Of a stretch of 22,370 nucleotides of DNA, positions 2,172 to 20,163 are shown piece by piece. Below the pieces are notes generated by a model. The model searched no databases. It was given only the letters and a program-made list of their open reading frames with translations, and was not told the origin of the DNA. Positions within the stretch are counted from its first letter, which is position 1; each line of letters starts with the position of its first letter. Location of the stretch: positions 4,306 through 26,675 of the forward strand of contig CABPSV020000140.1 of assembly GCA_902459845.2 (NCBI GenBank). The letters are read 5' to 3'. Source of the stretch: Hepatocystis sp. ex Piliocolobus tephrosceles. Its lineage: Eukaryota > Apicomplexa > Aconoidasida > Haemosporida > Plasmodiidae. The position numbers were made by a program, and so were the translations under genes.

Positions 2172-5100
2172 ATGCGATTTTATTTTTTTATTGAGGTATA
2201 TATTATATACATTGTGCTGATCAGTTGTCTTTTAATTAAAAACAAAAACGGACATGTAAATAATCAGGGAAATTTTTTTATAAATTTGTATCTAAACAAA
2301 TATAATAAATATAGTAAATATAATAAATATAATAAATATAATAAATATAGTAAATATAGTAAAAGTAGTAAATATAATAAATGTAGTAAATATAATAAAT
2401 ATTTTATAAATAATTACAACTATAAACATTATGTGAATAATTACAACTATAAACATTATGTGAATAAATACAATTATAAACATTATGCGAATAAATACAA
2501 TAAAAATATTATTAGTAGTAAAATTGTTGTAACAGCTCAACCCAGTGAGCAATATGAATCTTTTCCTCATGGTACAGCTTTAACAAGTTCATTGGAATCG
2601 CCTATTGTTGGTTTAAAAATAGGTGAAAAGTTGATAAAAGAAAAAAATGCACATAATTATAACAATGTAGTTTTTTTTAATATACCAAGTGATTGTAGTA
2701 ATGAAAATGGAAGTATAATGTTATTATACAAATTAAATAAAGAATTATTTATATGTCGAAATAAAAATAAAATTAATACATTACTTTGTTTGTACTATAT
2801 ACCAACAATAACATCTATAACAAGTATATATAATATATTACATACCTTTAGTTTATTTGATTCACATATAAAAGAAAATATTATTTATCATATGTGTTTA
2901 AAATGGTTATATACATATACTAATAAAAATGAAAAAATATTTAAAATACTTGATTTGAACAGGTACAAATTTAGTATACAACATATAAAAGTATTAAAGA
3001 AATATGTTAAGCAAAAAAGACAAAATAATGGATTATTATATGGGTCATATTTACATGGAGAAAATGAAGTACAAACATGTACGTTCAGAACAAATATGTT
3101 TAAAAAAACAGATATATCATTAAACAGTCATAATTATAAGAAATTTTACACTAGTTATAATAAATGTTCGAGCAAACAAATAAACACAAAACAAACAGTT
3201 AATGAAAACAAAATAATTGATATTTATTTAAAATTTAAAAAGAAATTAAACATTCTTCTGTTCAGCATTAAAGACAATAATAAATGTTACAATGTATATA
3301 AAAAAGTAAAAAGAAATATTTTATATTATGACATCTTTGACAGATTTATTTTATTAAACTATTTTTATAAATATGAAAAATATAGACTACTGTTATTATT
3401 TTTTAAACATCACATCTATCCTGATCTAAATAAAAACGGTAATAACTTATTTATAATAAATTTTATTAATAAATTAAATACAAACAATGTACTACTAAAT
3501 AAATACATAACAAAAACAAACATGATTATATATGATATCTTACGTAACAACACAGTAGTAAATAAAAAAAAAGATATGTACAAACTAAATATACTGTCAC
3601 ATATAAATACTTATAATTTTATTGATAATTATATAAAAGATAATATTTATTTTTTTAAGGATAAAAATAAAAATAAAAAAAAACTATCATATAACAATAA
3701 TTCGAATATAAATTATTTATTCTATGTAAATATGTTAAATTCCTTTTTGCATGAAAAAAATTACTATTATGTTCATATTTTTTTGAAACAGTTTTTTTGT
3801 TATTACTCACAACAAGAAGATATAAAAAATATTTTATATGATATAAAATGGTTTTATTTTTTAATTACATTATCATATGAAATGAAAATATATTATACTA
3901 AAAAAAAAAATGACATAAATACAAACAATTTTGATTATAAATTAAAAAGTTATAATAATGATTATTATACAAATACTGTTCAAATATATAATGAGGACAT
4001 ATTCAGTAATACACAACAAACAGATATTCACAATATACAGGATATTAAAGCCAGTTTAAATAAAAAGGTAATAACATTTCTACAAAATCAAAAAAAAAAA
4101 AAAAATCAAAAAAAAAAAAAAAATCAAAAAACAAAAAAAAATCAAAATCAAAAAAAAAAAATTTTACTACTAAATAGACAAAAAAGGGATAGCACAATAA
4201 AAACTTATTCATATTTGCTTATATTACAATACGTATTTTTATTACGCTTAAATTTGAAGAAAACTAATTTTGTAAATAAACATGTTTCTAACTATTTTGA
4301 AAATGAAATAGCACAAAAGGTGTGTCTTTATGGTAACGAAGCTACATCAGTCCATATTAGTGAACCTCAAAAAAAAAAAAAAAAAAAATCAAACATAAAG
4401 GTAGAACATAATGACATTATTTATTCTTGTAAAGAAAAGAACAGTGATGACTTTTTTAATTATAACACAATGGATAAAGATGCATATTTTAGTAGTGACA
4501 TACATAAGTTAATGGCAAAAAAACAACTAAAAAGAAAAAAAGAGCTTTATTATATTATTAAAAAATATAAAGAAATATTAAAAACCAATTCTGTTAAAAA
4601 TAAAACTAATGAAATATTAATATATAATCATATGTTTAATGAGTTGTTCAATTTTATAACTAATTATATTCAGGACCTAGAAGAAAGAATGTTACAAAAA
4701 AAGTTTGAACATACAACTATGATAGAATTAGGAAGTGTTATAAAATATATAATAAATATATGTAACATAAATATATGTTTTTTATTTTTACTGTTGGAAT
4801 GTTTATACAAATGTAATTATAATAAAAAAGCGTCATTATATATTTTATATGTACAAAAGGAAATGAAAAAAAAAAAAAAAATTTTTAAATGCATAAAACC
4901 AGAAATACGTAAATTGATAGATAATCATTTTCGATCTGGACAAACAGAGTTCCTTAAAAAAGAAACAACTCCTTTAGTTAAAAAAAACGTTACATTATTT
5001 TTTGAAAATTTTAAATTACAATATAAAACTATTTATAATATATACGAAACTATACTTAGTTGTAGTAACAAACAGAAAATAACTCATTTGGTTCAAAAAC

Positions 5101-6824
5101 TTATTTATTATGATAAACAAAATATAAACATGTCATCAGTACAAATATTTAAAAAACCAATCCTTGTTCTTAATTTGAAACAAATATTTTTTATTTTTTA
5201 TTATTTAAATAGTTATAATATGCACACTGATATTATTAATTTATTTACGCATATAATGGATTATAAATATATGAGGGATTTATTTTATCATTATATATCA
5301 AAACATGGACAAAAGGAGCCAGTAAAACAAGCCTACACTAGTGACGTACTTGCTCCCAAACCAAGTGCACTATTATCACCATTAAAAAAAAATAATAACA
5401 ACGAAACACGAACATTATGTAAAAATATCTTTTTTATTTATTATAATGCTAAACTGTGTTTTGATAACTTTTTTTATTTTTCAGAAGAGGCAAAGTACAT
5501 GAAAAAATTTAGGAAATATTTTTTTTTCTATTATAAACCTTTATACATATATAAATATTTAATTAATAAGTATAAAAAAAAAAATATATATTATTATACC
5601 ACAACTAATAATGAACGTAGTAACGAACACAGCAACGGAAGTAGCAGCGGAAGTAGCAACGGAAGTAGCAGCGGAAGTAGCAACGGAAGTAGCAGCGGAA
5701 GTAGCAACGGAAGTAGCAGCGGACGTAGCAACAAAAATAGAAGCGGAAGTAGCAACAAAAATAGCAACGGAAGTAGCAACAAAAATAGCAGCGGAAGTAG
5801 TAACGAAAGTAGCAACAAATGCAATAGTAAAAATAAAAACCAACTGTCACTAATTGAGCAAGAGCTACAAAACTTATATAACAATAAACATATTAGCAAA
5901 CAAAATATAGACAAATTAAAAAATAGTAAAATTTTTAATGCTTTTTTTCTTCAACTAATACATAATTATATTAGCAAAAAAGAGTATACGTTGATTTTTA
6001 ACGGATTAATGAAATATTTACAAAAAAATAAAAATATATTATATTACAGTAGTACCAATAATTATAGTATAATAATGCCTCATTCTAATTGTAGTAACAA
6101 AATAATGAATAACAGAAACAGAAAAAAAAATGCACAAGAACAATATTATTATATATATCTATATTTTTATTTAACTTTTAAATGTTATTTAAATACGCAC
6201 AAAATGTCCAAAATTAATTTTTTAATATTGTTAAAAACATTTTTACTAATGAATGATATAAATAGTTTTAAAGCTATTGTTAAATTATATCCAAAATTAG
6301 TATATAATAATTATATTTTAGTCAATTCCATATTAAATGATCACCTTTTATTATTATCTAGCAAAAACAGTAGTATTAAAAATTTACTAAATAATGTAAG
6401 TGTGCCGACTGACATATATATTATGCATAAAAAAAAACTTATTATTTTTAATTTAAATTATAATCAACTCATCAAAATATTTTATAATGTTTTTATACCT
6501 CCTTATAATAATAGTACCGATGAAACGAATAAAATAATTTTTTTTATTGATTATAAAAACATAATAATTAATTTAATCAATTTATCATACTTTTTTAATT
6601 TTCCCTTTTTAAATAATGAAAAATTTATAAATTTTTTGAATAAACAAAACATTACATTGAATGAACAAAAGCTTTGGAATATTTCTGAATTTATCATATT
6701 TTATGGAAATTGTGTTGAAAAAAAAAAAAAAATTATCCAATTTTTTACTGAACATAATCGCAAATTCCTTATTAGGAAAAATAATAATATAAAGGACGCT
6801 TTGATTGTTTCTTTCAAAAAGTAA
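2172..6824 (+). CDS. Conserved-type Plasmodium protein of unknown function, probably apicoplast-targeted
   Basis: An uninterrupted 1550-codon frame ends at TAA 6822-6824. The frame opens upstream, but the first ATG is at 2172 and a stop lies in frame at 2142-2144, so I start at 2172. The bases before this ATG (TTTGTT) are a weak context, and a spliced upstream exon cannot be excluded. Residues 1-22 are a hydrophobic signal-like segment. Residues 9-125 contain no Asp or Glu and are rich in Asn, Lys and Tyr, the classic signal plus transit peptide of apicoplast proteins. The rest alternates hydrophobic and Lys/Asn-rich stretches that look like helical hairpins, for example [16 protein letters not shown], faintly resembling PPR/TPR-type repeats. 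No catalytic motif is visible. Low-complexity inserts are described separately; Lys tracts (4091-4160, 4369-4388) rest on long A runs. Confidence 0.85.
2295..2402 (+). repeat. NKY/SKY tripeptide repeat in the leader
   Basis: A 9-bp unit (AATAAATAT and variants) encodes about twelve copies of NKY or SKY just after the hydrophobic segment of the 2172-6824 protein. It supplies most of the positive charge of the presumed transit peptide. Confidence 0.85.
2409..2501 (+). repeat. 27-bp repeat, three copies plus a partial
   Basis: Units at 2409-2435, 2436-2462 and 2463-2489 encode [18 protein letters not shown] and NKYNYKHYA, followed by a partial NKYN. The repeat continues the acidic-free leader of the 2172-6824 protein. 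Confidence 0.85.
5619..5819 (+). repeat. GC-rich Ser/Gly/Asn repeat inside the 2172-6824 gene
   Basis: Short units of AGC, AGT, GGA and AAC codons encode SSGSSNG-type repeats, later mixed with AAA codons (SNKNSNG). The block is visibly much richer in G and C than the surrounding gene. Its simple period leaves other frames open on both strands, but those readings are low-complexity shadows. Confidence 0.9.
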
Positions 6825-9424: not shown

Positions 9425-12400
9425 ATGGGTTATAGAAACTTGATTTTTAGTTTAGTGTTTTTTTTCGTTATATTTTGTTCTCACAATGAAAGTAAACAAT
9501 TAATTGACAGTGTAACTACCAAGGGAGATTTAGAATTAATAATATTATTTGATATAGGTTATAAAAATATAAAGAAAAAGTTTTTAACTGATGGTCTTAA
9601 GAATATAATTGAAACGAGTAAACAGTTATTAGTGCAACATCATAACAAGATTAAACTAACGTATATTACATACAATAGTAAAGAAGTGAACACTAAGATT
9701 GAGATTGATAATTCAAGTTGTACAGAACCTTATAATGAAAAAGAAAATAAAAATAACAATGATGTTTTTAAAAATTTTTTAAAAGTAGTGAATGATACGA
9801 AATTAGAAAAAGAAAATAAAGATTCAGAACATTTGAAAGCTTTAAATTATGTAGCTATGAGACATTTTAATCATAAATTATCAAAAAGTATTAGGTTAGT
9901 TGTTATGTTCATGCACACTGATGGTGTTATAGATATTAATAGGGTTGATATAAATGTTATAACTCATTTATTTGATTCAAAAAAAGTTACTTTAAATATT
10001 ATAACAAGTCTTGAGTTTGTAACTTATTGTCAATATTTACATGGTATAGGTCCAAATACAAATGAATTATATAGATGTGTTGGTAGAAAATCATATTATA
10101 ATGATAATGTTTTTTCTTATTATTTACCCCGCTTTTATGATGATATAGCAGATAATGCCATATGTCCTGATTTTAATTATTATTCAGAATGTTCAGAAGA
10201 ATGTGATGTAGGTCATCATACAGCTCATATGAAATCGTTAAATCCTTTAGTACCAGCAACAACAGGGTTGTATAATAGGGTAGGTAAAAGTTGTTTTGAA
10301 CAAAAAAATACAATAACACATGAATGTTTTCATAGAAGTTGTGACAGTTCGCTTGATGTATGTGATATTCGGTTAGATATAACACTGGTAGTAGATGAAA
10401 ATTCGACAATGTCACAAGAAGTATGGTTAAATAGTATAATGAAACCTATACGTGCTTTGATTACTAATTTAAACATTAGTAAAAATTTGATAAATCTTGT
10501 AATAACGACATTTTCTTCTAAAATATACAAACTGTACAATTTTAGTGATTTTATATCAACAAATAGAGATAAAATAATAGATTTGTTAGATGATCTAAGA
10601 TTTAATTTAGGAGATAGTTCTAGAAATATAAATAACGCTTTGTATTTTGTATATAAAAATATTCTTAATAGTAATGTACGAAGACCAAATGCCAATAAAA
10701 TAGTAATTGTTGTTACTTCTAATACTATAGATAAAAAGTCTCTAGTTGGTGTAGAAGAAACTATAAGATTAATTGAAAAAAACTATAAAGCTACTGTATA
10801 TTCTATTTGTATTAATAGTATTGATGAAGAAAGCTGTAAAAAAATGGCTAGTAAAAAATATATAACCAATTATGATGAGGTGGCTATAGATGCCTTGTTA
10901 CTTAGAAAGAAAAATCCCATATATAATAATATCGTTTATAGTGCAAACTATAGCAACAATTTTGCATTTCTTTTATCTTCTACATTTGATATGGAAGCCG
11001 ATATGAAATATATCCAGAGGCAGATATGTTCTAATTCGTTTGAAGATATTCAAGTTATAAAGAAAATCGACGATGAAGAAAAAATTGAAAAAAGAAAATT
11101 ATTATTGGAAGAAAAAAAAAAAGAATTTCAAAGACGCCAGCGAGAAAGAGAACAAAAAAGAAAAATTGAAGAAAATAAGCCAGAAACTATATTAGCAGAA
11201 AAAGCTTTACACCAAATTCCACCACCAGTATTTAAGAAAGAAGAAAAAATCCAAAAATCACCTCCACCAGAAATAAAAACAAAAGATGATGGAAAAACAG
11301 ATACAACAAAAGTAAATCAAGATGTTGTTGGTGTAGTGAAAGAAACAGAAAAAGATAAAACGGATGAAAAAAAAGGTGGAATTATACGTAATTTTTTCAA
11401 AACTAAAGATAATGATAAAACTAAAGATAATAATAAAATTAAAGATAATGATAAAACTAAAGATAATGATAAAACTAAAGATAATGATAAAACTAAAGAT
11501 AATGATAAAACTAAAGATAATGATAAAACTAAAGAAAATGATAAAACTAAAGATAATGATAAAACTAAAGATAATGATAAAACTAAAGATAATGATAAAG
11601 AAAATGATAAAACTAAAAATAATGATAAAACTAAAGATAATGATAAAACTAAAGATAATGATAAAACTAAAGAAAATGATAAAACTAAAGATAATGATAA
11701 AACTAAAGAAAATGATAAAACTAAAGATAATGATAAAACTAAAGAAAATGATAAAACTAAAGAAAATGATAAAACTAAAGATAATGATAAAACTAAAGAT
11801 AATGATAAAACTAAAGAAAATGATAAAACTAAAGATAATGATAAAACTAAAGAAAATGATAAAACTAAAGAAAATGATAAAACTAAAGATAATGATAAAA
11901 GTAACTCACCTGAAAATGTAGTTATATACCATAATAATCCTGGATCTAAATTGAATCGATCTATAGCATCAGTTGATAAGAAGGATGTCATATTAAAATC
12001 TGTTACCCATTTAAACGAAGACGATAATGATGGAAAAGATACTCACATAAATAATGAAGATTCACAAATTCGTAAGAAGAGTAAGTCAGAGTTATGTTTA
12101 AACAACAATTGTCACAACAAATCTTCTGGTTCTGATCCTAATAAAAATAAATCTTCATTATTACAAAAACTATGGCATTTAATTAAATTAAAAAATAAAA
12201 AAAAATATAATTTAGGAAATAGTAGTTTTTATAAAAAAGATCCTAAACATTTAGATGAGCTAATCAATAAAGCTATAAATTTAAATGAACGNNNNNNNNN
12301 NNNNNNNNNNNNGAAGGTGGTAATAAAAATTTAAATAAAAAAGATGGAGCTATAAATGATAGTAATTTATCCATTGGAGATTCTGAACATGACATAAATG

Positions 12401-14265
12401 ATATGCTAAAAAAAAAATCATTAGCAGATTTAACTTCCGGTAATTTATTTTATAAACCTAAAATAAATGGACTTAATAGATATGATAGTACACGTTCTTT
12501 AGGTAAAAATGTAACTTTTAATTTGAAAGATAATATAAAATATAATAATAATCGTAAAGATAATAATACTGATTTAGAAAAAACAAAAGAAGGAAAGGAA
12601 ATGGATGAACTAGCAACAAATAAAACGACAAAAGATAACGACGATTTGTATAAAAATCCATACAAATTTATCATAGAAATGCTAGAAAACTTAAAAAAAG
12701 AATCTTTACAACCAAATATAAATGAGGAAACTATAAAAGAAAAATATGATGATAAGGATAAAGATATCAATAATGATAAAACAGAAAATGGTAAAGAAGT
12801 ACCTACAATCAAACACGATGATGCAGATCAACCAAAGAAGAATGAAACAATTGTTTTGACAGAAAAAAATGCAGAAAATAAAAATAATAATAATGTTAAA
12901 GATACAGAGAAAAGTGTTGACAACGAGAAAAAAGACACTGATAAGGTTATTATACCTATATTAAAGAATATACCAAATACAGATAATAATAATGTTAATA
13001 ATAACAATAATAATAATGATGTTAAAGATACAAAGAAAAGTGTTGACAACGAGAAAAAAGACACTGATAAGGTTATTATACCTATATTAAAGAATATACC
13101 AAATACAGATAATAACAATGTTAATAATAATAATGTTAAAGATACAAAGAAAAGTGTTGACAACGAGAAAAAAGACACTGATAAGGTTATTATACCTATA
13201 TTAAAGAATATACCAAATAAAGATAATAACAATGTTAATAATAACAATAATAATAATAATAATGTTAAAGATACAAAGAAAAGTGTTGACAACGAGAAAA
13301 AAGACACTGATAAGGTTATTATACCTATATTAAAGAATATACCAAATAAAGATAATAACAATGTTAATAATAACAATAATAATAATGATGTTAAAGATAC
13401 AAAGAAAAGTGTTGACAACGAGAAAAAAGACACTGATAAGGTTATTATACCTATATTAAAGAATATACCAAATACAGATAATAACAATGTTAATAATAAT
13501 AATGTTAAAGATACAAAGAAAAGTGTTGACAACGAGAAAAAAGACACTGATAAGGTTATTATACCTATATTAAAGAATATACCAAATAAAGATAATAATA
13601 ATGTTAATAAAAATAAAGATGGTTATCCTCAAATTCATAAAGACGATTATAATGAAGATGGTGATGATTATCATATTAAAAAAATAAAGGATAGTGTATT
13701 ACCAGAAACGGTAAAATCGTCAATACCACACCATGAAGAAAATCCTATTGTCAATAAAAATTATAAAAATGAGCATGATAAATTTTATAATAGTAATAAA
13801 ATTCAAGACAACAATAAAAATAAAAATAGTGATGATTTTAATAAAAAAAATAATAATAATGATCCTATATTACCTTTTAATTTTACGAACAAAATAGAAA
13901 CACAAGAAGAAGATACAATAATAAAAAATAAAAGAAATGCATGGGAAGCAGATTTAAAAACATTAAAAAAAAGGAATGAACCTCTGGTTAAAAATGAAGA
14001 ATTAGCAAAACTATATTGGGAAGAGGAAGAAGCAGCCAAAAAAAAAAGTATATATAGTGGAGCATATTTTTATTGTGCTTCTATTGCAGTTGCATTTTTG
14101 GCCTTAACGATAGGGTTATTGTGTTACATAAGTTATGCTAATAAGAAAAAATCATCACATGATAATCAAAATAAATCTACCGATTTTATGGAAAAAAAAA
14201 CAGATCCTAAAAATAATATTAATAAAGAGCAAGTTATGGACATGCATGATAGTAATTGGCAGTAA
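9425..14265 (+). CDS. TLP: TRAP-family adhesin, probably TRAP-like protein TLP (one gene spanning an assembly gap)
   Basis: Type I surface protein of the TRAP family, which links parasite surface adhesion to the actin motor through a short tail. Residues 1-20 are a signal peptide. A vWA-like domain covers about 35-235, a divergent TSR about 247-306 (CSEEC core), and a second vWA-like domain about 317-510. Then follow a charged helix with proline stretches, 27 KTKD/END repeats, a spacer with the N gap, six long repeats, a membrane span encoded at 14062-14139, and a roughly 40-residue tail ending DMHDSNWQ. A penultimate Trp is the aldolase-binding hallmark of TRAP tails. Total about 1610 residues. 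The frame changes across the 21 N, but from 12313 it reads openly (EGGNKNLNKKDG) into the second part, so the apparent break comes from gap size. The two-vWA, one-TSR layout points to TLP rather than TRAP or CTRP, from memory of the family. Confidence 0.85.
11399..11896 (+). repeat. 18-bp coding repeat, 27 units
   Basis: The unit AAAACTAAAGATAATGAT encodes KTKDND, with a frequent KTKEND variant from GAT to GAA. There are 27 full units plus one 12-base short unit (KEND) after unit 11. It lies in the extracellular stalk of the TRAP-like protein. Both other-frame and opposite-strand readings stay open but are shadows. Confidence 0.95.
12292..12312. other. Assembly gap of 21 N
   Basis: Unknown bases lie inside the TRAP-like gene. 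The upstream frame enters the gap at codon position 3, and the downstream frame has codon position 1 at 12313. An intact gene therefore needs a true gap length equal to 1 modulo 3, such as 19 or 22 bases, not 21. Confidence 0.98.
12895..13617 (+). repeat. Six long coding repeats (114-129 bp)
   Basis: Units start at 12895, 13021, 13135, 13264, 13390 and 13504. Each encodes VKDTKKSVDNEKKDTDKV, then IIPILKNIPN, then an Asn-rich linker of variable length; the first unit has VKDTEKSV. Unit spacings are 126, 114, 129, 126 and 114 bp. The non-linker part is almost identical at base level, a sign of recent expansion or gene conversion. Confidence 0.95.
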
Positions 14266-15089: not shown

Positions 15090-17552
15090 TTAGATAAACG
15101 TCAACTGATTGTATATTTTTTCTTTTGTCTTGAAATCAGTATCTTCCGCTTTAATTACTCGAACAAGACTTCTTAATGTTATTATTAAATATGGATAGTT
15201 ATCAATACTTTCAAAAATCGTAACATTTTTTAATAATAAAGTAGATCCTACATCTATTAATTTTTGATACTCTTTTTCCACTTCTTTATGTAAACATGCA
15301 GCCATTTGTCCCGATGGGTCCATTGTAACGATAAAGTACCCATGACTACGACATTTAATACTTTTTATTATTACCATCAATCTACTTATTCGATATTGAG
15401 AAAAATGTTTATCTTTTAATATGTTATGTATATTGTATTTATAAAGAAATAAATAATTATTATTGTTGTTACTGTTGTTGCTATTGTTGCTATTGTTGCT
15501 ATTGTTGCTATTGTTGCTGCTGTTGTTGCTACTGTTAGGACCTTGTTGAATGTACTTATGCACATTTATACCCAAATGAAATGCATCTATAGGTAAATTT
15601 AATATTTTTAAAGCTTTTAACCATGATTTATATTTTATAAAAGAATAACAATAAATTAATTCCTTTTTTTTATCATCAAATATATTTACTTGTGTATTTA
15701 AATGATTAATTTTTTTTTTTTCTGGTTCAAACTTGTTCGTATGTTCATCATACTCGTCCGTATATTCACCATACTCGTCCGTATATTCACCATACTTGTC
15801 TGTATGTTCACCATACTTGTTTGTATGTTCATCATACTTATCTGTATGTTCATCATATACATTTACATTTTCATTGTCATTTTGTTTTTGTTGTATGTTA
15901 TTACTAAGATGTTCTAACAAAACAGATGAAGTATTATGTTTAAACAAATCATTTTTAATAAATTTTTTATCAATCGAATTAAAATTATTATGATCATATT
16001 TTAATGAAGTAAATTTAGATGGTGTAGATACATATGAGGAGTAGTTATCTTCATCTGTTTTAAATATATTATTTGTGTTGTAATTATATTCTAATTGATT
16101 TTTTTTTAATAACTTGTTTTCACAATCGTTAAAATAATTATTGTGATTAATATTAGTATTGGTAGTATTAACAGTATCGAAACTATTAGTAGAAGATGGA
16201 TGTTTATTTGCATAATTACGTTTTTGTAACATATTTTTTTTTAATATTTCATTATTATTATTTATTTCATTTTGTAACAATGTAGAAACAGAATTTAATA
16301 CATTGTTGGCTGTAAAATTATTTTTTCCAGATTTGTATTTATTATTACCGTCATTGTTATTACTATTACTGTCGTTGTTATTACTACTGCCGTTGTTATT
16401 ACTTCTGTCGTTGTTATTACTACTGCCGTTGTTATTACTACTGTCGTTGTTATTATTACTGTCGTTGTTATTATTACCGTCATTGTTATTACTATTACTG
16501 TCGTTGTTATTACTACTGCCGTTGTTATTATTACTGTCGTTGTTATTACTACTGTCGTTGTTATTACTACTGTCGTTATTATTACTGTCGTTGTTATTAC
16601 TACTGCCGTTGTTACTACTATTACTATTGTCATTACTTTTTATAAAACTATTTTTGGACATGTAACTGTTGTTCATAATATCGTGTGGCACATATGTTAC
16701 AGATTGTTCATTACATAAATCAGTTTTTTCAATTTTTTTATTTAATTTGCAACTATATTGCATTATATTTTTATTACTTATTTCGTCTAAGTTTGTATTA
16801 AATTCTTCATTTTTACGTTTTTCTTCATTTTTACGTTTTTCTTCATTTTTACGTTTTTCTTCATTTTTACGTTTTTCTTCATTTATACATACAAAGTTTG
16901 TAACATTTTTATTAAAAAAGTGAAATTTATTTAAGTCGTTATTATTTTTGTTTGTTATGCTACTTATAGTATTATTTTTTATGTTACTTATTATACGACA
17001 TGTTTCATTTTTTTTATTATTCAGATTTTTACATAAATGTGAAGATTCTTTTTCATTCACCTGATAATTTATATTAATGTTTTTGTCGATAGTTTGTTCG
17101 TATGTTGTATTACCCGCGATATTACTAATTTCGGTCGGTTTATTTTTACAAAATTGTATCGAATTATTATTATCATCATATATGTCACTATAACCCCTAT
17201 TATTACTACTACTACTACTGTTATTATTATTATTATTACTATTGTTAAAAATTTTATTTTTATTTTTTTTTACATAGTTGTTCTTATTATTACTATCACT
17301 ATCACTATTTCTACCTTCAAATGTTAATAATTTTTTTTTTTCACAATTAGTATTTTTAAAAAAATTATCTAATGTTCCTATGTTTCGTATATTAAAGTTT
17401 AATATAGAACTTGAGCATGATTTATTCGTTTGGTTTTGGACATTTTCTTTATTAAAACTGGTATATGTTGTTTTTTTTTTTTTCAATTCATTTTTTTGAT
17501 TATATTCATCATCACTTTCGTCTAACAAACAAGACAAGTTTTCATCTAACAT
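15090..17552 (-). CDS. HROB-like (C17orf53) OB-fold protein, Asn-rich
   Basis: A single 820-codon frame runs from an ATG at 17550-17552. Most of residues 1-635 is low-complexity (Asn/Ser runs, EEKRKN and EHTDKY repeats), with short conserved-looking pieces such as MLDENLSCLLDESDDEY and GTLDNFFKN. The C-terminus is globular. Residues about 640-680 (YKSWLKALKILNLP) are helical, then an Asn insert, then about 718-805 match my memory of the HROB OB fold (former DUF4539). Key pieces are RISRLMVIIKSI, MDPSGQMAACLHKEV, VGSTLLLKNVTIF and YLIITLRSLVRVI. Human HROB binds and stimulates the MCM8-MCM9 helicase in homologous recombination, in the nucleus; the same role here is inference. It could be another OB-fold protein of the RPA or RMI type, but DPSG...H favours HROB. 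It faces the TRAP-like gene tail to tail. Confidence 0.7.
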   Translation of the reverse strand: MLDENLSCLLDESDDEYNQKNELKKKKTTYTSFNKENVQNQTNKSCSSSILNFNIRNIGTLDNFFKNTNCEKKKLLTFEGRNSDSDSNNKNNYVKKNKNKIFNNSNNNNNNSSSSSNNRGYSDIYDDNNNSIQFCKNKPTEISNIAGNTTYEQTIDKNININYQVNEKESSHLCKNLNNKKNETCRIISNIKNNTISSITNKNNNDLNKFHFFNKNVTNFVCINEEKRKNEEKRKNEEKRKNEEKRKNEEFNTNLDEISNKNIMQYSCKLNKKIEKTDLCNEQSVTYVPHDIMNNSYMSKNSFIKSNDNSNSSNNGSSNNNDSNNNDSSNNNDSSNNNDSNNNNGSSNNNDSNSNNNDGNNNNDSNNNNDSSNNNGSSNNNDRSNNNGSSNNNDSNSNNNDGNNKYKSGKNNFTANNVLNSVSTLLQNEINNNNEILKKNMLQKRNYANKHPSSTNSFDTVNTTNTNINHNNYFNDCENKLLKKNQLEYNYNTNNIFKTDEDNYSSYVSTPSKFTSLKYDHNNFNSIDKKFIKNDLFKHNTSSVLLEHLSNNIQQKQNDNENVNVYDEHTDKYDEHTNKYGEHTDKYGEYTDEYGEYTDEYDEHTNKFEPEKKKINHLNTQVNIFDDKKKELIYCYSFIKYKSWLKALKILNLPIDAFHLGINVHKYIQQGPNSSNNSSNNSNNSNNSNNSNNSNNNNNYLFLYKYNIHNILKDKHFSQYRISRLMVIIKSIKCRSHGYFIVTMDPSGQMAACLHKEVEKEYQKLIDVGSTLLLKNVTIFESIDNYPYLIITLRSLVRVIKAEDTDFKTKEKIYNQLTFI
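15729..15854 (-). repeat. 21-bp coding repeat (EHTDKY), six units
   Basis: Six 7-residue units encode DEHTDKY, DEHTNKY, GEHTDKY, GEYTDEY, GEYTDEY and DEHTNKF. They lie in the low-complexity part of the HROB-like protein, just before its globular C-terminus. Confidence 0.9.
16340..16640 (-). repeat. Asn/Ser/Asp/Gly repeat tract
   Basis: About 100 codons of (S/G)NNND(S/G)-type units made from AAT/AAC, GAC, AGT and GGC/GGT triplets in the HROB-like protein. The triplet periodicity leaves other frames open on both strands. Confidence 0.85.
16809..16880 (-). repeat. 18-bp coding repeat (EEKRKN), four units
   Basis: Four identical or nearly identical 18-bp units encode EEKRKN in tandem within the HROB-like protein. 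Confidence 0.9.
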
Positions 17553-18843: not shown

Positions 18844-20163
18844 CTAGTCAGGCGAGTTATACTTCTTATTATAAACGTTTTTTAAAAAAGTTAGAAATTT
18901 CTCTATGTCAACAACATAATCAATTGAGCTAGCTTTTATTTCTATTGCCTTACTAATATTATATTCAAGTTTTTTTAAAATTTCTTTTTTTATTTTGAAA
19001 TTACTATTTTTTTGGTATATTGCTATATTTGTTAAAAAACCTGGAAAAAATAAATTATAAAAAAAGTGTTTTTTTGGTGTTTTAACAAAAGCTGGTTTTT
19101 CTTTTGAATCTTTTTTATCTATTTTTGTTGCAACACAAGCTATCGGGATTTCCCCTTCTAATATTTGTTCATTTTTATGGTGAACTCCTTTTTCAATATC
19201 TGACATGTCATCATCATAATAATAATCAGATGTATTACAAAATGTGTTTCTTTTTTTTTTTTTTATATTATTTATATAGTAAGAATTTTTACTATAGTCA
19301 TCATCTGTGTCTTCTTCGTTATTATTATAATTTAACTCTCTTGGATTTATTTTTTTATTCATTTTTTTTTTTTTTTTTTTTGTTTTGTTATTAATGTTTA
19401 TACTATTGTTACCATTCTTTTTAAAAAAAAAATTCCAAAAAATGTTCCCTTTGTTTTCATTAGTACAGAAAATATCAGAAGGTGGCTTCGTATTAATATA
19501 TAACTCATATAGCCAATTTACTAAATTATGGTAAGACTGATTATTGGAAGTATCATATACTAATAAAATACCATCATGATTTTCATAAAATATATTTCTT
19601 ATATATGCATAAGTTTCTACACCACCAATTTCAAAAAATTCAACAAATAAAATATTATCTTCATTATTATTATTACTATTATTTATGTCGTTACTATTAC
19701 TACTATTTAATTTGTTACTGCTAGTATTATTATTTTGTATCTGCGTATTCATATATAAATTATTAAAATGGTACCCCTTCCTTAATATATTAATAGGCAT
19801 ATTCTGTTCAAACATATTATTATTATACTCACAATTTTTATTCCATAAAAATGTATATATTTCATATCCATATGTATATTTATGTCTTTCTTCAAAAAAT
19901 GTACTTTTTGAATTTAATTGTGTTTCAATAAATTCTAATAAATTTTTTTTTGTTTGAAAAAATACAGATTCTACAGCACGTTCGAGTTGTTGTTTACTAC
20001 TATTATTACTACCTTCTACATTTTTGTTTCCTTCATCTATATAGGTAAAATAATCAAAGTAATTGATTGGATATATATCACAAAACCTTTCACTAATTAA
20101 TTTTAAAAACGAGCTTTTACCTACACCTAAGTCTCCGAGAACTAGTATTTTTAAACTTTCCAT
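18844..20163 (-). CDS. RABL3-like small GTPase with Plasmodium inserts
   Basis: A 439-residue frame begins at ATG 20161-20163 and ends with TAG. The P loop is GDLGVGKSS (residues 10-18). The switch II segment is FVEFFEIGGVETYA (EIGG at 178-181), followed by HDGILLVYDTSNNQSYHNLVNWL. The base-binding motif is TKID (346-349), and KASS (410-413) sits at the G5 position before FLTFLKNVYNKKY. The GG in switch II, the LVYDTSNNQS piece and the ending resemble RABL3, which is about 236 residues in humans. The extra length comes from inserts at about 45-165 and 235-335. There is no C-terminal Cys, so no prenylation, as in RABL3. Human RABL3 has been linked to RAS-family prenylation and proliferation; the parasite role is unknown. 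SRPRB is an alternative but would carry an N-terminal membrane span, absent here. Confidence 0.75.
   Translation of the reverse strand: MESLKILVLGDLGVGKSSFLKLISERFCDIYPINYFDYFTYIDEGNKNVEGSNNSSKQQLERAVESVFFQTKKNLLEFIETQLNSKSTFFEERHKYTYGYEIYTFLWNKNCEYNNNMFEQNMPINILRKGYHFNNLYMNTQIQNNNTSSNKLNSSNSNDINNSNNNNEDNILFVEFFEIGGVETYAYIRNIFYENHDGILLVYDTSNNQSYHNLVNWLYELYINTKPPSDIFCTNENKGNIFWNFFFKKNGNNSININNKTKKKKKKMNKKINPRELNYNNNEEDTDDDYSKNSYYINNIKKKKRNTFCNTSDYYYDDDMSDIEKGVHHKNEQILEGEIPIACVATKIDKKDSKEKPAFVKTPKKHFFYNLFFPGFLTNIAIYQKNSNFKIKKEILKKLEYNISKAIEIKASSIDYVVDIEKFLTFLKNVYNKKYNSPD

Follow-up and report, generated by a model that had tools for sequence, protein, structure and literature searches.

A 22,370-nt stretch of the genome of Hepatocystis sp. 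ex Piliocolobus tephrosceles (contig CABPSV020000140.1, positions 4,306 to 26,675; hereafter the window) carries on its minus strand a gene whose product ends in an HROB-family oligonucleotide/oligosaccharide-binding (OB) fold, as profile searches and a structural model confirm. We put at about three in four the probability that this gene is the parasite orthologue of human HROB (also named MCM8IP and C17orf53) and that its product stimulates the MCM8-MCM9 helicase, with the C-terminal OB fold docked on MCM9. The equivalent of the MCM9-contacting phenylalanine of human HROB is kept in the window protein, and the core of the MCM8-binding motif is absent from it. The features in question are as follows.

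15090..17552, minus strand: HROB-family gene, one uninterrupted open reading frame (ORF) of 820 aa, stop codon included in the span (translation; start kept in alignment A1).
15147..15395, minus strand: HROB OB-fold domain PF15072, residues 720-802 (Pfam, OB model, profile-profile match to mammalian HROB).
15213..15215, minus strand: F780, equivalent of human F553, the MCM9 contact (alignment, codon checked; role from PMC11055865).
15552..15659, minus strand: conserved block before the OB fold, LIYCYSFIKYKSWLKALKILNLPIDAFHLGINVHKY, residues 632-667 (many invariant columns in alignments A1 and A2).
15660..15761, minus strand: stretch upstream of the conserved block, residues 598-631, without GPAG here and holding the GPAG site in six orthologues (motif comparison).

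A Pfam search with the 820-aa ORF gave HROB (PF15072) at an E value of 1.5e-23 (83 bits, residues 720-802, profile positions 1-84 of 85), and a search with the last 110 residues gave it at 4.4e-25 (87.9 bits, profile positions 1-85 of 85); the curated cut-off of the family is 30.8 bits. No other OB-fold family (RPA, TEBP, SSB) rose above cut-off in the Pfam search of the window protein. The sole other OB family listed, tRNA_anti-codon (E 0.16 on the 110-residue piece), fell below it, as did Secretin_N_2 (E 0.0012 on a 186-residue piece), whose match covers a stretch containing the asparagine-rich linker; NCBIfam gave no match for the window protein at E ≤ 0.1. In addition, a profile-profile comparison by hhalign matched mammalian HROB with an E value of 7.6e-9, and the window gene holds the single PF15072 match in the genome assembly (12.39 Mb, 611 contigs).

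Two protein searches, one of which scored the 7982 candidates sharing most words, yielded 20 orthologues, all with precomputed PF15072: 16 carry Plasmodium names and four (P0013, P0019, P0020 and P0021) carry none. Four alignments were used, A1 (13 orthologues and the window), A2 (19 of the 20 orthologues), A3 (16) and A4 (13 and the window). In a set made up of 13 orthologues and the window, all 14 proteins matched HROB, with no second Pfam family at E ≤ 0.001. All orthologues aligned retain the SFI.Y.SW block as well as the OB fold.

Neither the C-terminal fragment nor A2 gave more than weak matches when searched by sequence against solved structures (best E 0.059 and 5), and those shown fall in low-complexity stretches. 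A first AlphaFold2 model, based on 20 haemosporidian sequences, was weak, with a mean predicted local distance difference test score (pLDDT) of 54.6; with mammalian HROBs added to the alignment, the mean pLDDT was 66.7. In the AlphaFold2 model, fragment residues 71-170 are predicted to follow the OB order β1-3, helix, β4-5 (block pLDDT 76-91), and the block before the OB fold is predicted, at low confidence, to form helices (block pLDDT 47-58, fragment residues 1-30). A helix-rich region directly before the OB fold has been described for HROB (PMC11675949). The structural-search hits of the model were filled by OB-fold proteins, including RPA70, Teb1 and CST. OB-1 of RPA1 was the best Foldseek hit by E value (1.6e-5), and the top four rows, each an RPA protein, have low template modelling scores (TM-scores), from 0.23 to 0.35. 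An earlier note, made from the letters of the window, had seen what looked like an HROB-type OB fold at the protein end, within 15090-15400; the domain falls inside that interval, and the four segments quoted there are found in the ORF translation at residues 721-732, 745-758, 768-780 and 788-800. The note would have given the idea up for a better match to another OB-fold family or for a model with no OB fold; by profile, no other OB family reached cut-off, and the AlphaFold2 model is an OB fold.

The OB fold of human HROB (residues 492-575) is reported to be dispensable for DNA binding and required to stimulate MCM8-9, and its residue F553 contacts MCM9, with changes of F553 strongly impairing unwinding (PMC11055865). 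The F553 column is invariant in a 38-row alignment, in which the window residue is F780, and the equivalent is also aligned for the P. relictum orthologue by hhalign. All 21 haemosporidian proteins contain VT(I/V)F with the F553 equivalent, and GVFSPS occurs in each of the best 120 of 613 proteins from a search with human HROB. Furthermore, MCM9 is encoded in the same genome (L006:456-5039, an open frame spanning 1527 codons between stops). Its best match is human MCM9, at 249 bits versus 157.8 for the best other MCM, and this match starts at human residue 98, past M45, the partner of F553. In published work, MCM9 is expressed in mosquito midgut stages (PMC10100735), MCM8 and MCM9 are both named in the PfSET10 interactome of P. 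falciparum (PMC11580448), and a figure legend names the P. falciparum MCM8 (PMC3536722).

Residues 396-413 of human HROB, the MCM8-binding motif (MBM), are reported to be needed for MCM8-9 binding in cells (PMC7290032). The sequence RRFPGPAG(I/L/V)LP is present in 118 of the best 120 proteins from the human-HROB search, and the two without it are short (423 and 393 aa); these rows are not independent, since they include isoforms, unnamed rows and close relatives. The GPAG core of the motif is present in six of the 20 orthologues, namely those of P. relictum (P0006) and P. gallinaceum (P0016) and the unnamed P0013, P0019, P0020 and P0021, and is absent from the window protein and from the other 14, all of mammal-parasite Plasmodium. 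P. relictum and P. gallinaceum read GPAGLQHKIKK, and the four unnamed proteins read DLVGPAGL(R/Q)QKLK. Bird-parasite and unnamed HROBs keep GPAGL, whereas the window protein, a member of the same gene family, does not; the 14 mammal-infecting Plasmodium proteins have the same domain and invariant residues as the window protein and likewise lack GPAG. Identity of the C-terminal fragment to that of the window is 73% for P. relictum, 69% for P. gallinaceum and 53-58% for the four other GPAG proteins.

Of 20000 composition shuffles, 0 to 4 placed GPAG in the 60-residue stretch that precedes the domain block. With a mammal-only motif matrix, the GPAG site is the best-scoring upstream segment in six of six GPAG proteins, equalled in 0 to 8 of 300 shuffles. 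For the 15 proteins without GPAG, the window protein included, 28 to 287 of 300 shuffles equal the best segment with this matrix and 16 to 282 with a both-group matrix; with the latter, P. reichenowi and one P. vinckei come out as borderline cases, their best segments lying far from the domain. Because up to 8 of 300 shuffles match the GPAG proteins, the matrix scan alone is only fair evidence, and the exact GPAG shuffles are stronger. On a tree built from 148 columns of the conserved blocks, a single change of GPAG state is required. In this tree the window groups with malariae, ovale, rodent and vivax-group parasites (branch support 90/94, not starred), a placement on which a Laverania origin of the window was dropped; the order of bird, Laverania and other Plasmodium is left open by it.

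With the MCM9-contact phenylalanine kept and the GPAG core absent, parasites without GPAG probably hold the helicase mainly via MCM9, having lost or replaced the known MCM8 grip. In the mechanism that we propose, a mostly disordered HROB protein would act in recombination and fork repair, at a stage after the loading of RAD51; its acidic N-terminus would bring it to RPA-coated single strands, and its OB fold would bind parasite MCM9, through which mainly the helicase would be held in species without GPAG. The more specific proposal that HROB gave up its hold on MCM8 on the stem of mammal-infecting Plasmodium and turned into an MCM9-only adaptor is tentative, and we regard it as doubtful. The earlier note had also proposed a dedicated MCM8-type helicase cofactor. 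Membership of the HROB family, an encoded MCM9 and the naming of MCM8 and MCM9 in P. falciparum speak for that proposal, but it is overstated for this species, since the MCM8-binding motif is missing from the window protein and 14 of the 20 orthologues while the MCM9-contact residue is kept. As a whole, the interpretation given there is partly supported.

Several observations weigh against a cofactor of MCM8-9 in these parasites. Deletion or mutation of the MBM is reported to abolish MCM8-9 binding of human HROB in cells (PMC7290032), so that an HROB without it might not serve MCM8-9. In addition, hhalign did not align the parasite block before the OB fold with the mammalian block. The genome search of the partial assembly did not find MCM8, and WHD_MCM8 had no match there; this miss is uninformative, because the 12.39 Mb yielded three MCM genes in all, of which no more than two can belong to the MCM2-7 set of six (we take the two besides MCM9, from their sequences, as MCM4 and MCM2). 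Finally, a pulldown of P. falciparum MCM4 from blood stages, which concerns the replicative complex, is described with neither MCM8 nor MCM9 (PMC12218279). As for the GPAG pattern, three points make a simple reading less secure: where the motif of human HROB has L405, the six GPAG proteins have Gln or Arg; their motif lies closer to the domain than that of human HROB (31-34 versus 54 residues before the conserved Trp); and the tree was built from a single short protein.

Short of even odds, and still a serious contender, is the explanation that HROB of mammal-infecting Plasmodium binds MCM8 through a different or diverged disordered sequence, such as a KIKK-like remnant upstream of the OB fold, with no function lost. 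For residues 362-440 of human HROB, an extensive contact surface with MCM8 is predicted, and single changes at this interface are reported to allow unwinding with no notable defect in vitro, combined changes impairing it under stricter conditions (PMC11055865). Moreover, P. ovale has EFQRKIKK and P. malariae ELELKIRK where P. relictum has GPAGLQHKIKK. However, the matrix found no strong segment in the 15 proteins without GPAG, and in the Laverania, rodent and vivax groups no shared motif was seen by eye in the part upstream of the domain. It is improbable that an OB fold of HROB descent has been repurposed for another partner (RPA, RAD51, telomere or replication factors) instead of MCM9: the MBM core is gone, and the fold alone does not set the partner, given that RPA70, Teb1 and CST are among the structural neighbours of the model, but the phenylalanine of the MCM9 contact does not vary, and the genome also encodes MCM9. 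That a generic single-strand-binding OB protein of RPA, TEBP or SSB type has been misnamed HROB is very hard to credit, despite RPA1 OB-1 leading the Foldseek hits by E value, in view of an HROB E value of 4.4e-25 against 0.16 for the sole other OB family, the hhalign match to mammalian HROB and the low TM-scores of the RPA rows.

The window protein resembles human HROB (P0023; PF15072) in being largely low-complexity, with one HROB OB fold near the C-terminus. The two proteins share the DPTGEM..H / DPSGQM..H core, the F553 equivalent and an acidic N-terminus. They differ in that the window protein is without the RRFPGPAG(I/L/V)LP motif and, ending 18 residues past the Pfam match, without the acidic tail of human HROB, and in that asparagine-rich stretches are a feature of the parasite protein only. 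At 820 aa it exceeds the 541-665 aa of the mammal-infecting Plasmodium PF15072 proteins, and the excess is largely repeats and asparagine-rich stretches. Outside the N-terminal start, the SFI.Y.SW block and the OB fold, haemosporidian HROBs are mostly low-complexity; the linker between the block and the OB fold spans 34 residues in the window protein and 9 to 87 in the 20 orthologues.

15456..15542, minus strand: Asn/Ser-rich part of the linker, residues 671-699 (translation; pLDDT below 50 at fragment residues 29-66).
17505..17552, minus strand: conserved acidic N-terminus MLDENLSCLLDESDDE, candidate RPA1-binding motif (kept in A1; analogy with human acidic N-terminal stretches).

Acidic stretches in the N-terminal third of human HROB are reported to bind RPA1 (PMC7290032), and by analogy the acidic N-terminus of the window protein is a candidate RPA1-binding motif. 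The MLDENLSCLLDESDDE start is kept in the named Plasmodium proteins; a similar MIDDNLACLLDDSEEE is found in P0013, P0019 and P0020, and not in P0021. Because these first residues align with the starts of the 13 A1 orthologues, the start of the ORF is probably correct. Two further islands are seen in A1. One, SSILNFNIRNxxxLDNFF (residues 48-65, 17358-17411, minus strand), lies in the N-terminal region of Plasmodium HROBs; a reading of its LDNFF as a PCNA-interacting-peptide (PIP) box was dropped, as there is no Gln and FF is not kept in P0013, P0019 and P0020. The other, ETNLYxE-like (EKTDLCNE in the window; residues 275-282, about 16707-16730, minus strand), is found in several Plasmodium HROBs, in an otherwise variable middle part.

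The HROB gene is adjoined by a Ras-family gene and a VWA-domain gene. In the latter, a run of N (12292-12312), either a gap in the assembly or a withheld stretch, splits the reading frame in two.

18844-20163, minus strand: Ras-family GTPase gene, domain split by Asn- and Lys-rich inserts (PF00071, E 1.2e-10).
9425-14265, plus strand: VWA-domain gene with charged repeats and a C-terminal hydrophobic stretch (VWA, E 5.4e-17).
2172-6824, plus strand: 1550-aa ORF with a hydrophobic signal-like start (no family above cut-off; CFAP143 at E 0.0015, below cut-off).

The VWA-domain gene resembles TRAP-like protein (TLP), which we take to be PF3D7_0616500. From that number and the name of PF3D7_0616700, the P. 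falciparum HROB gene is presumably PF3D7_0616600. PF3D7_0616700 of P. falciparum is called 'ras GTPase' (PMC5135057).

HROB is described as an early eukaryotic gene of wide but patchy distribution, and the main text of that paper has no mention of apicomplexans, Plasmodium, Toxoplasma, alveolates, ciliates or protists (PMC11675949). Literature searches by protein, family and gene names found, judged by titles among the papers listed, no paper on HROB in a haemosporidian; the one paper retrieved by gene identifiers concerns the neighbouring gene. At NCBI, the 16 Plasmodium orthologues are named conserved protein of unknown function, hypothetical or uncharacterized. A UniRef name starting 'Homologous r...' stands on 14 of the 20 orthologues and PF15072 on all of them, so the HROB label is already in automatic annotation. 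The assignment to HROB is therefore not new; what is new here is the pattern of presence and absence of the GPAG core across haemosporidians.

Plasmodium parasites pass through multinucleate replication rounds and undergo meiosis in the mosquito, and to our knowledge little is known of how their recombination helicases are controlled. The HROB gene is a defined candidate for the study of this control. If HROB did become an MCM9-only adaptor in mammal-infecting parasites, their MCM8-9 helicase would be loaded or activated differently than in their bird-infecting relatives and their hosts. The contrast that nature offers between parasites of birds and of mammals may help to tell the MCM8 contact of HROB apart from its MCM9 contact.
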